A stretch of DNA of 64,000 bases. Source: Haloplanus ruber (GTDB taxonomy: Archaea > Halobacteriota > Halobacteria > Halobacteriales > Haloferacaceae). The stretch's first letter is position 1, and the number at the start of each line of letters is the position of its first letter. The translations under genes and the position numbers were made by a program. The stretch spans positions 310,001-374,000 of the forward strand of contig NZ_JANHDK010000003.1 in NCBI RefSeq assembly GCF_024494725.1. Reading direction: 5' to 3'. A model generated the notes under the pieces. That model ran no database searches, was not told the origin of the DNA, and was given only the letters and a program-made list of their open reading frames with translations. Positions 1,329 to 38,341 of this stretch are shown piece by piece.

Positions 1329-1933
1329 TGGGCCGCAAGATCGGCGTGATCGCCGTCCAGGGAAACGTAAGCGAACACGTGGCGGCAATCGAACGGGCGG
1401 CCGACGCCGTCGGCATGTCGGTCTCCGTCGTCGAGATCCGTGAGGCCGGTCACGTCCCCGACTGTGACGCCCTCGCGCTCCCAGGCGGCGAGTCGACGAC
1501 CATCTCCCGACTCCTCGGCATGGAGGGCATCGACGCGGAAATCGTCGATCACGTCGCCGCCGGCAAGCCCGTCCTCGCGACGTGTGCCGGGTTGATCGTC
1601 GCCTCGCGGGACGCGCGCGACGACCGCGTCGACACCCTCGGCGTCGTCGACGCCGTCGTCGACCGCAACGCCTTCGGCCGACAGGTCGACAGCTTCGAGG
1701 CCGGTCTCGACGTCGGCGGCCTCGACGACCCGTTTCACGCGGTGTTCATCCGCGCGCCCGTCGTCGACGAGGTGGGACCGGACGTCGAGGTGCTGGCGAC
1801 GTGGGAGGATCGCCCGGTGGCGATCCGCGACGGCCCGGTCGTCGCCACCTCCTTTCACCCCGAACTTACCGACGACAATCGCATCCACCGGCTCGCACTC
1901 TTCGACCCGCTTCGGGCGTCCGCGTCGGCGTAA
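1328..1933 (+). CDS. pdxT: Pyridoxal 5'-phosphate synthase glutaminase subunit PdxT
   Basis: A 201-aa class I glutamine amidotransferase of the PdxT/SNO family. It hydrolyses glutamine and passes ammonia to the PdxS synthase, which makes PLP from ribose-5-phosphate and glyceraldehyde-3-phosphate. Visible features are the N-terminal IGVIAVQGNVSEH, the oxyanion loop GGEST (~53-57), the nucleophile Cys ~86 in LATCAGL, and the His-Glu pair in FHPEL (~177, 179). Length is normal for the family. pdxS is not in this window. It overlaps the Sec61-beta stop by one base. Confidence 0.96.
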   Translation: MGRKIGVIAVQGNVSEHVAAIERAADAVGMSVSVVEIREAGHVPDCDALALPGGESTTISRLLGMEGIDAEIVDHVAAGKPVLATCAGLIVASRDARDDRVDTLGVVDAVVDRNAFGRQVDSFEAGLDVGGLDDPFHAVFIRAPVVDEVGPDVEVLATWEDRPVAIRDGPVVATSFHPELTDDNRIHRLALFDPLRASASA

Positions 1934-2005
1934 CGACAGGCCCTTGGCCCCGCCGGCCGTCCGGACGCACATGACCTGCGACTACCGCCCGGCGGTGATC
2001 GGTGC

Positions 2006-2317
2006 GTGACCACCGACGCCGGTTCCGACGACCCCGAGGCCGTCCTCGACGCGCTCTTTGCCACCATCGAGGACCGCCGTGACCGCCTCCCTGACGACTC
2101 CTACACCGCCTCGCTGTTCACCCACGAGAAAGGCGAGAACGCCACGCTAGAGAAACTCGGCGAGGAGACCACCGAGGCTATCCTCGCGGCGAAAGACGAC
2201 GACGACGACGCACTGCTCGCGGAGTCCGCGGATCTGGTCTATCACCTACTCGTCCTGCTAGCGATGAAGGAACTGACCGTCGACGACCTGCGGGACGAAC
2301 TCGAAGACCGGTTTTAA
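2006..2317 (+). CDS. hisE: Phosphoribosyl-ATP pyrophosphatase HisE
   Basis: A 103-aa MazG-like all-alpha pyrophosphatase for the second step of histidine synthesis (PR-ATP to PR-AMP). The metal-binding acidic residues are visible in EKLGEETTEAILAAK and in the later ESADLVYHLLVLL helix. Translation begins at GTG; no ATG exists in frame at a sensible place. It lies 72 bp after pdxT, and no other his gene is nearby, which is common in haloarchaea. Its TAA overlaps the npdG stop from the opposite strand by two bases. Confidence 0.95.
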   Translation: MTTDAGSDDPEAVLDALFATIEDRRDRLPDDSYTASLFTHEKGENATLEKLGEETTEAILAAKDDDDDALLAESADLVYHLLVLLAMKELTVDDLRDELEDRF

Positions 2318-4231: not shown

Positions 4232-4901
4232 TCACTCCCCGACGCGGGTGCTGATCTCCTCGGCGACCCGGCCACCGGGGTAGCGGAGTTGCCCACTCTC
4301 GACCTCGTAGACGTAGCCGTGGACCGTCGCGTCGATCAGCGGATGTTCGTCGAGATAGCGCACCTGGGCGGCGCAGGTTTCGTCGATGTCGTCAGAACGC
4401 GACTGCGTTCTGACTGCTAACCAGAAATCTCCGATTTCTGGTGATGTCGTCGGTCATCCGCACCCAGTCGGCGACGCTCGCGTCGCCGATGGACAGTTCC
4501 GGCAGCGCGGGATCGAGGTCGACGTCGTCGAGGTCACCGCCAGCGGCGGCTTCCATCCCCTCGACGATGGCGTCGTCCGGCGCACTCATCATCCCGCAGT
4601 CGGTGTGGTTGATCACGATGATCTCCTCGGTGTCGAAAAACTGAGTCGTCAGCGCCGCCGACCGGATCACGTCGTCGGTCACCTTGCCGCCCGCGTTGCG
4701 GTAAATCTGGGCGTCGCCGAGTTCGATGCCGAGCGCCTGCTCGACGGGGATGCGCTCGTCCATGCAGGCGACGACGAGTAGCTGTTTGTTCGTCGGAATC
4801 CCCTTTCGGCGCCGCCGCGCCCAGTCGTCGTGGGCGTCGACGGTGGCGTCGACGTGTTCGTGGTGGTGCCCCGGCTCGTGGTCGTGGTCTCCGCCGGACA
4901 T
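4232..4901 (-). pseudogene. Beta-class carbonic anhydrase interrupted by a 58-bp insertion
   Basis: The gene starts at 4901 with a His-rich leader (MSGGDHDHEPGHHHEH), then the beta-CA active site: CMDER (~46-50) and HTDCGM with zinc ligands His and Cys. After MTDDI the frame runs into inserted DNA and stops at 4392-4394, giving a 169-residue product with 13 foreign residues at its end. Removing 4394-4451 (58 nt) restores one frame of 203 aa whose C-terminus, translated from 4393 down to 4232, reads DIDETCAAQVRYLDEHP and continues HGYVYEVESGQLRYP to a TGA. The lost part supplies the last helix and beta-strand of the core, so the product is probably inactive although its active-site residues remain. 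Confidence 0.85.
4385..4451. mobile_element. 49-bp double-hairpin insertion with 9-bp target duplication
   Basis: The 9-mer GATGTCGTC occurs at 4385-4393 and again at 4443-4451. Between the copies lie 49 bp made almost wholly of two hairpins: AGAACGC-GACT-GCGTTCT (4394-4411; the stem extends to 10 bp if flanking bases are used) and ACCAGAAAT-CTCCG-ATTTCTGGT (4420-4442), joined by 8 nt. Carbonic anhydrase coding sequence continues in frame on either side once 58 nt are removed. Subterminal hairpins recall IS200/IS605-type ends, but a 9-bp duplication is not typical of those, so the class is uncertain. It has no coding capacity. Confidence 0.75.
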
Positions 4902-4957
4902 ACCACTCTCTACGGGCGCCGACGGTTTCACGGGCGACCCGCCGGCAACGATACCCG

Positions 4958-36589: not shown

Positions 36590-38341
36590 CTACCCGTTCT
36601 CGACCCGCGGCCGCTCGACCCGTTCGTCCTCGGCGGCCGCGATGCCGCCGAACTCGAAGCGGGCGCCGCCGGTCTCGCTTTCGGTCACGGTCACCGACCA
36701 GCCGTGTGCCTCCCCGATGTTTCGGACGATATTGAGTCCGAACCCGGTTCCCTCCGGGTCGGTCGAGTGGCCCGTCTCGAATACCTGGTCGCGCTTCTCT
36801 TCGGGGATGCCCGATCCGTCGTCGGCGACGTAAAATCCGTCGTCGGTGCATCCGACGGTGATCGTCGGTCCCCCGTCCGCTGTCGTTCCATCGCCCTCCG
36901 ACTGGTCGTCCGTCGAACCGTGTTCGACGCTGTCACCGGACCCTGTCCGGTTGCTCGTGGAGCCGTGCTCCACGCTGTCGTCGGACTCCGTCCGACTGCC
37001 CGTCGAACCATGTTCGACGCTGTTCCGGAACAGATTCTCGAACACCTGCGCCAGGCGTTGTTCGTCGCCCTGGACCGTCCCGATGCCGTCCTCGACGACG
37101 AGCGCCGCGTCCCCGGTGTCGGTCGTCTCCCACGCACTCTCGGCGACCGACCCGAGGTCGACCGGGTGGAACTCGCTCACCGCCCGGCCGTTCCGGGCGA
37201 GCGTAAGTACGTCGTCGATCAACTCGTCCATGCGGTCCAGCGCTCCCGCCACCCGATCCAGGCGTTCCCCGTCCCCTCCCGCTTCGAGTGCGAGTTCGAG
37301 GTTGCCCTGTGCGACGTTCAGCGGGTTCCGGAGGTCGTGGCTCACGACGCTCGCGAACTCGTCGAGTCGTTCGTTCTGCCGGGCGAGTTCACGCTCGCGT
37401 CGCGCGAGTCGGTCGCGGGCGGTCATCGAGTCGAGGGCGTGGCCGATGCTTTCGCCCAACTCGGAGAGCGCCTCCCGTTCCGGCGCGTCGAATACGTTCC
37501 CCCGGTTGGCGTAGATACTCAGGAACCCGTAGACGGCGTCCTCGCCCACCAGCGGGACGACCGTCATCGACTCGACACCCTTCTCGGCCAGCATGTCCCA
37601 CCACGGTTCCAGGCTCGGCTCGGCGAACACATCTTGGATCGGCTGGATCTCTCTCGTCCTGATTGCCTCCCCGCCCGGCCCCTGCCCGGCCGGATCGGAC
37701 GGATCGACGGTTATCTCCAGTGATTCGATATACGCCTCGTCGTGGCCCGCCCACGCCACCGGCCGTACGTGGGTCGTTCCCGGCGTGTACCGTCCGATCC
37801 ACGCGCTGTCGTAGATGCCCGACCGGGTGAGTTGCTCACAGACCGTCGTCTCGAGTCCCGTCCGGTCGGTCGCGTGGACGACCTCTCGGGTCACGATACG
37901 GAGCGTGTCGTTGATCCGGGTCAACTGTGCCGTCCGTCGTCGCTGCTGTCGTACCCGCGCGTCGTAGACACCGACGGCCAGTCCCACGCCGGCGCCGAGA
38001 GTCATCCCACCGAACAGTATGCGCTCCGGGGCCGTGGCCGCCGGGCCGCGAGCCGTGACGGTGAGGAGCAACCATGCGGTAGCCGCGGCGAACACCGTCA
38101 CCCCGCCGGCGACCCATCCCAGTATTCGACGCCCTGCGCCCTCGGGGAGGCACTCGGATCGGCACAGCAACATCCCGGCTCCCGTCACCCCCACCGCGAG
38201 GAGCAGCGGGACGAGTCCCTGCACCGCCAGAACTTCCCCACGGGGCCACAGCCGCACGACCACAATCGAGTGGACGACCACTAGCAGGGAGCCACCCCCC
38301 GCGACGAGTGCGCCCCCCTGTCGTCCCGACACCCTGTCCAT
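36590..38341 (-). CDS. Membrane sensor histidine kinase with GAF domain
   Basis: A 583-aa kinase. Four hydrophobic helices (~13-30, 38-60, 73-95, 108-125) precede a GAF domain (~140-305), then HisKA with the phospho-acceptor His335 in VVSHDLRNPLN and a HATPase domain (N-box NLFRNSVEHG ~437-445, G1 VADDGSGIP, G2 GTGFGLNIV). Between N-box and G1 the 15-residue unit SVEHGSTxxxTxSxD is repeated three times. No response regulator is adjacent, so the partner is unknown. Convergent with the M50 gene. Confidence 0.92.
   Translation of the reverse strand: MDRVSGRQGGALVAGGGSLLVVVHSIVVVRLWPRGEVLAVQGLVPLLLAVGVTGAGMLLCRSECLPEGAGRRILGWVAGGVTVFAAATAWLLLTVTARGPAATAPERILFGGMTLGAGVGLAVGVYDARVRQQRRRTAQLTRINDTLRIVTREVVHATDRTGLETTVCEQLTRSGIYDSAWIGRYTPGTTHVRPVAWAGHDEAYIESLEITVDPSDPAGQGPGGEAIRTREIQPIQDVFAEPSLEPWWDMLAEKGVESMTVVPLVGEDAVYGFLSIYANRGNVFDAPEREALSELGESIGHALDSMTARDRLARRERELARQNERLDEFASVVSHDLRNPLNVAQGNLELALEAGGDGERLDRVAGALDRMDELIDDVLTLARNGRAVSEFHPVDLGSVAESAWETTDTGDAALVVEDGIGTVQGDEQRLAQVFENLFRNSVEHGSTGSRTESDDSVEHGSTSNRTGSGDSVEHGSTDDQSEGDGTTADGGPTITVGCTDDGFYVADDGSGIPEEKRDQVFETGHSTDPEGTGFGLNIVRNIGEAHGWSVTVTESETGGARFEFGGIAAAEDERVERPRVENG
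36887..37021 (-). repeat. Three 45-bp tandem repeats inside the kinase N-box region
   Basis: Codons 441-485 encode three 15-residue units: SVEHGSTGSRTESDD, SVEHGSTSNRTGSGD, SVEHGSTDDQSEGDG. The repeat unit copies the end of the N-box (SVEHG), adding 30 residues to the ATP-binding domain without changing frame. Confidence 0.85.

Follow-up and report, generated by a model that had tools for sequence, protein, structure and literature searches.

A double-hairpin unit within the beta-carbonic anhydrase gene of Haloplanus ruber and its relatives in Halobacteria

The stretch of Haloplanus ruber DNA analyzed here (the window, 64,000 nucleotides) contains a beta-carbonic anhydrase (CA) gene whose reading frame is interrupted by a short segment that folds into hairpins, which raises the question of what this segment is and how it came to lie there. 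The segment has moved into the CA gene and broken it, and it is a member of a large family of very small mobile units with hairpins, which appears not to have been described. We consider it probable, though well short of certain, that the segment is a non-autonomous mobile palindromic unit of Halobacteria that inserts in hairpin form at a target resembling its own junction, and that is tolerated by host genes at 57 nt but breaks the CA gene at 58 nt.

The interrupted carbonic anhydrase gene

The features of the locus are as follows (hpA and hpB denote hairpins A and B).

4232..4901, minus strand: interrupted CA gene, 203 aa without the 58 nt (Pfam and translation after excision)
4392..4931, minus strand: truncated CA open reading frame as present, 179 aa from GTG, ending in ...TRNRRFLVSSQNAVAF and a stop
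4389..4446, minus strand: inserted unit, 58 nt, CATCACC-hpA-TTAGCAG-hpB-CTGACGA (register set by the family consensus; absent from the CA gene of six congeners)
4385-4446, minus strand: covariance-model match to the inserted unit, 83.8 bits
4420..4442, minus strand: hairpin A, 10-bp stem and 3-nt loop, arms 4420-4429/4433-4442
4391..4414, minus strand: hairpin B, 10-bp stem and 4-nt loop (usual loop 3 nt), arms 4391-4400/4405-4414
4415..4419, minus strand: core of the linker between the hairpins (conserved TTAGCAG with flanking bases; near-invariant alignment columns)
4385..4393, no strand assigned: direct repeat copy 1, GATGTCGTC, on the coding strand GACGACATC (from the sequence)
4443..4451, no strand assigned: direct repeat copy 2, made up of GACGA from the host target and CATC from the unit itself (from the sequence)

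The two copies of GATGTCGTC are separated by exactly 49 bp, and the coordinates given in a preliminary description for these 9-bp direct repeats inside the CA gene were confirmed. On the minus strand, which is that of the gene, the segment reads GACGA/CATCACC-AGAAATC-GGA-GATTTCT-GGTTAGCAG-TCAGAACGC-AGTC-GCGTTCTGA-CGA/CATC. That description had recognized two perfect hairpins, which is correct, but had assigned them stems of 7 and 9 bp; both stems are in fact 10 bp long and 100% complementary, because their outer pairs draw on repeat and linker bases. Computed with DNA parameters, the single-strand fold reaches -20.5 kcal/mol, against -6.6 ± 1.8 for shuffled sequences (z -7.6; 0 of 200 equal or better).

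Removal of the 58 nt yields an open reading frame of 203 aa from ATG, and translation thus bears out the claim that excision restores a full CA. The Pfam family Pro_CA (156 positions) is matched over profile positions 2-70 in the truncated frame and 2-155 in an uninterrupted congener. As judged from the sequence, the enzyme is deprived of its final ~50 residues and is probably inactive. The frame is broken because hairpin B has a 4-nt loop, so that the unit measures 58 rather than 57 nt. An assembly error was ruled out as the source of the segment, since the same nucleotide is filled in three other species.

A family of double-hairpin units, often in frame

A DNA search (E up to 1) retrieved relatives of the unit in 112 of 147 genomes, and a covariance model built from 37 copies found matches in 102 of 118, with at least 47 in each of two genomes (G013 and G040); 46 candidates were scored per genome and these counts are lower bounds, of matches rather than loci, as a unit may match on both strands. 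Carriers include Halorubrum, Halogranum, Natronococcus, Halogeometricum and Halobellus, and in the genome of the window the CA copy is the sole full-strength unit. The structure is conserved: 16 of 20 pairs have changed on both sides (0 of 500 shuffles scored as high), and 96.7% of cells in the model alignment are paired, versus 28-40% with slid partners. The default unit has two 10-bp stems joined by TTAGCAG and comprises 57 nt, or 19 codons. Among 158 distinct units, 100 measure 57 nt and 22 measure 58 nt; units also occur in tandem and in arrays. The many relatives, together with filled and empty sites, support the earlier view of a tiny non-coding mobile unit, which had hinged on the presence of other copies in haloarchaeal genomes.

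A search of Rfam over 20 loci gave one chance match, away from the unit, so a known RNA family was rejected. The exact pattern was absent from the viral contigs searched, and a viral vehicle was likewise rejected. No published description of the family was found in the open-access literature. In G040 and G013 (loci L156-L186), many units lie within longer recurring intergenic blocks, for example GGGGGGAGGGGTGGGGACTC... and GCAAAAGCTCGAC...GGCGACAAAAGCC, which may be larger repeats.

In five independent host genes the unit lies in phase and free of stops, and for four of these empty orthologues were compared. The dapA gene carries 57 additional nt in G013 and G084 and is empty in G040, G059, G074, G147 and G148. 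A Gly_transporter-family gene of G040 is longer by 57 nt, and its S9 peptidase gene by 114 nt, which correspond to two tandem units; dph5 is longer by about 51 nt in G131 and G145. The fifth gene is a GH3-like frame of G018, whose family was assigned by eye. The unit accounts for odd inserted peptides such as SSQNASRSDD and ANQKSPISGDV, by which annotation and structure prediction could be misled. A length of 57 nt is divisible by three, and three of the six frames of the unit are open, so phase is mostly built in, and it is stop-freeness that selection must choose. One loop base is therefore the difference between 19 added codons and a truncated protein. An automatic test found the unit out of phase in two tnpB genes, as in the CA gene.

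Several related observations were made at other loci. The tnpB genes of two genomes are broken at the same site (SQSG/FNLKN) by an out-of-frame unit (L144 4722-4782; L295 711-771). In G084 (L209), the Gly_transporter-family gene holds a short single-hairpin remnant where G040 has the full unit. Within the window, a sensor histidine kinase (HisKA, HATPase_c, GAF; 36590-38341, minus strand) contains an in-frame hairpin array at about 36920-37070, after the N box, FRNSVEHGSTGSRTESDDSVEHGSTSNRTGSGDSVEHGSTDDQSEGDG, in which the host sequence SVEHG is repeated with each 45-nt unit; a weak covariance-model match lies at 36974-37022. At the end of an icd-like gene (L030 1467-1533; L097 2003-2068), there is a hairpin-B unit after the stop codon, and beyond it an altered copy of the final 18 nt, ATCGAGAAGCTTTCGTAG, which itself lies in a hairpin.

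Target sites and modes of movement

The preliminary description proposed a 9-bp target duplication. A 9-nt repeat is indeed present in H. ruber (G000), but its length is not fixed: the right copy in G004 is GACGATATA and has host TATA, the left copy there has the unit's conserved CATC, and the shared part is at most GACGA. Across copies, the first bases of the unit are C(A/G)TCACC, and the last, ahead of C(A/G)TC, are typically CGA or CAA. At the dapA site CTCSGCGACG is common to target and unit, with a repeat of 8-10 nt, and this site and G004 rule out a fixed 9-bp duplication. Most of the apparent duplication in the CA gene is the junction of the unit itself, to which the target corresponds. 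A second 58-nt unit lies in a degraded reading frame of G006, where the flanking sequence is the same as that of the CA site over TGACC-GACGACATC-GACG; a Pfam search of this frame gave no family, and our guess is a cation-efflux remnant. From the G004, dapA and G006 sites, the target appears to resemble the end-to-start junction of the unit, although the S9-peptidase and Gly_transporter sites match it weakly. Recombination of a circular or tandem form would call for such a target, as would a polymerase that switches templates. A miniature inverted-repeat element (MITE) was rejected: no inverted pair joins the ends, the two hairpins being separate and internal, and the shared length varies among sites, so that neither terminal inverted repeats nor a fixed-length duplication is present.

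In the mechanism that we favor, the unit would fold into hairpins as single-stranded DNA, and this form would either insert directly or be copied during replication into a target matching the unit's junction (GACGA/CATC), leaving no duplication of fixed length. The normal unit would add 19 codons that the host gene tolerates, and the CA form, with one extra loop base, would cause the C-terminal loss of about 50 residues. A broader generalization, that these are order-wide, structure-conserved mini-elements without a transposase of their own that target junction-like sites and repeatedly add 19 in-frame codons to working host proteins, is advanced only tentatively.

The same double hairpin occurs beside transposon genes. 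The block CATCACC-hpA-TTAGCAG-hpB-CGAC is located 29-39 nt past IS1341-type tnpB, or overlaps it, in many genomes and in the same orientation, so the suggested co-occurrence with a TnpB element sharing the hairpins was found. Haloarchaea are known to have their omega RNA region at such a position (PMC12558985), and the block may well be part of omega RNA. In the tnpB element, CCCTCAA comes after the block, then a third hairpin and finally the shared end GTAGGGTGGGGTAGTT(T/C)AC, beyond which the flanks diverge. The CA copy has no tnpB, third hairpin or true right end of the element (..GTAGGGTGGGGTAGTTTAC), and host sequence adjoins the unit directly. The proposed likeness to IS200/IS605 ends accordingly holds for the hairpins, which are common to tnpB elements, but not for a simple pair of ends; the CA copy stops before the end of the tnpB element and is thus not two element ends fused together. 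The genome of the window has four Y1 hits. Among unit-rich genomes, every Y1 gene of G013 is broken, and Y1 genes are absent from G017, G018 and G027. In G028, 77 TnpB hits were obtained but not a single match to the unit. Over 60 genomes, unit number correlates with Y1 and TnpB numbers at Spearman 0.30 and 0.34, values partly confounded by tnpB-linked units, and a strong link to either was rejected. In a separate observation, a second double-hairpin type, GTCGTTC-hp-GTGATGAC-hp-GAACCAC, interrupts the third hairpin of the tnpB 3' region of L069 (about 1900-2070, minus strand) relative to L065, and its motifs surround units in L007 and L009.

Among the alternatives, replication template switching survives best, though we think it rather unlikely. 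A nascent strand would pause at a palindrome-prone site, copy a distant unit via 5-10 shared nt and return, with no transposase involved. The variable shared stretch, GACGA(CATC) at the CA site versus CTCSGCGACG at dapA, is in line with this, as are the repetition of host sequence around or in the hairpins of the icd-like 3' end and the histidine kinase, and the unit-rich genomes that have no intact Y1 gene. It does not readily explain the tight unit length (57 or 58 nt in 122 of 158), and the order-wide conservation of stems and linkers suggests recognition.

Somewhat more doubtful is the view that the segment is an IS1341-type IS200/IS605 element cut to its palindromic ends, a terminal-only palindrome-associated transposable element (PATE) that a Y1 (HUH) transposase would mobilize in trans. 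The identical double hairpin downstream of tnpB speaks for it, together with published 52-bp forms that show strain-specific insertions (PMC3119063) and the host 5-mer before the insertion, which equals the unit's 3' end, as in a target/right-cleavage site. It was not upheld at the CA gene, where the right end of the tnpB element is absent, and the distribution of Y1 and TnpB genes in G013, G017, G018, G027 and G028 also weighs against it.

Evidence on the history of the CA site comes from congeners, compared with one genome per species. The segment is absent, and a single GACGACATC-like target present, in G001, G003, G005, G007, G008 and G010, so that the predicted empty-site orthologues with one GACGAYATC do exist; the identical nucleotide is filled in G000, G002, G004 and G006, with identical stems in all four. 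In the CA gene of the other carriers the segment is out of frame; in-frame coding there would have spoken against an insertion. In the CA tree, some supports of which are low, the filled species fall in three places (G000 by G007/G001, G006 and G002 by G003, and G004 by G005). A single filled clade was rejected (dlnL 65.8, AU p=0.0003), and with it vertical inheritance of the insertion in one clade. The repeated filling of one nucleotide in non-sister species is best read as a preferred target, and on this phylogenetic pattern the site was probably hit repeatedly. The right flank in G004 keeps ATA, the same as in its empty sister G005, which favors a separate insertion there. The gene is further damaged by a 1-nt deletion in G004 and by loss of its 5' half in G002. 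In G000 and G006, CA codons are conserved both upstream (dN/dS about 0.07-0.10) and downstream of the insert (pN/pS about 0.1; pN 0.034 and pS 0.28 for G000-G007), so these insertions look recent, or the enzyme is not fully dead. Some CA insertions could have been passed between species by short-tract recombination.

A single old insertion in the ancestor of the genus, lost precisely from several lineages by deletion between the 9-bp repeats, seems improbable to us. It would account for the same site and identical stems in four species, and repeat-mediated deletion has been described in haloarchaea (PMC3119063). However, it requires several losses, the flanking codons of G000 and G006 are under purifying selection, as would not be expected of an anciently broken gene, and the G004 flank matches that of the empty sister. 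Removal of the segment after transcription as an intron, or its bypassing by ribosomes, with the CA left intact, is very improbable, for although downstream codons are conserved and the hairpins lie between matching codons, the MFE and centroid structures (DNA parameters) are two independent hairpins with unpaired junctions, excluding an archaeal bulge-helix-bulge intron, the gene is damaged elsewhere in G004 and G002, and the unit is plainly in frame in other genes.

Comparison with known systems

The statement that the segment fits no standard class was too strong, since the segment comes close to the PATEs and small mobile repeats (SMRs) of Haloquadratum (PMC3119063) and to Rickettsia palindromic elements (PMC10969869). 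PATEs, from Haloquadratum walsbyi, share with the unit a haloarchaeal host, a non-coding nature, IS605-type-related palindromes and the lack of a terminal inverted repeat, and include 52-bp forms (PMC3119063). They leave no fixed target duplication (PMC3119063); for the unit, the repeat spans 9 nt in G000, at most GACGA in G004 and 8-10 nt at dapA. The near-terminal palindromes of PATEs have a counterpart in the double hairpin at tnpB 3' regions, whereas their terminal (targeting) sequence does not, the unit lacking GTAGGGTGGGGTAGTT(T/C)AC. Unlike PATEs, the unit is an internal double hairpin, lies in frame in host genes and occurs in genomes that have no intact Y1. SMRs are also small and transposase-free and insert into other elements without duplication, but they measure 80-110 bp and have terminal inverted repeats (PMC3119063).

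REP/REPIN sequences with their RAYT (TnpA_REP; PMC3116915, PMC6006769) resemble the unit in paired short hairpins and many dispersed copies; in contrast to REPINs, its two hairpins differ in sequence and are not mirror copies of each other. Archaea are reported to have only IS200-type (subclass 1.1) TnpA and no TnpA_REP. With the 3' region of haloarchaeal IS1341-type tnpB, where the omega RNA lies (PMC12558985), the unit shares the entire block, although the CA copy stands without tnpB; one may therefore ask whether free mobile hairpins derive from guide-RNA scaffolds or the scaffolds from such hairpins. The precise empty sites in relatives make the mechanism testable, including movement where no intact Y1 transposase was found.

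Rickettsia palindromic elements (PMC10969869) are, like the unit, small palindromes found in frame in unrelated protein genes. They are bacterial and about 150 bp long, whereas the unit is archaeal, linked to tnpB 3' regions and made of two hairpins in 57 nt, and the likeness noted here is one of insertion habit. The unit is thus nearest to PATEs in form and to Rickettsia palindromic elements in habit, and represents an archaeal counterpart of the latter that is small and well-phased enough for housekeeping proteins.
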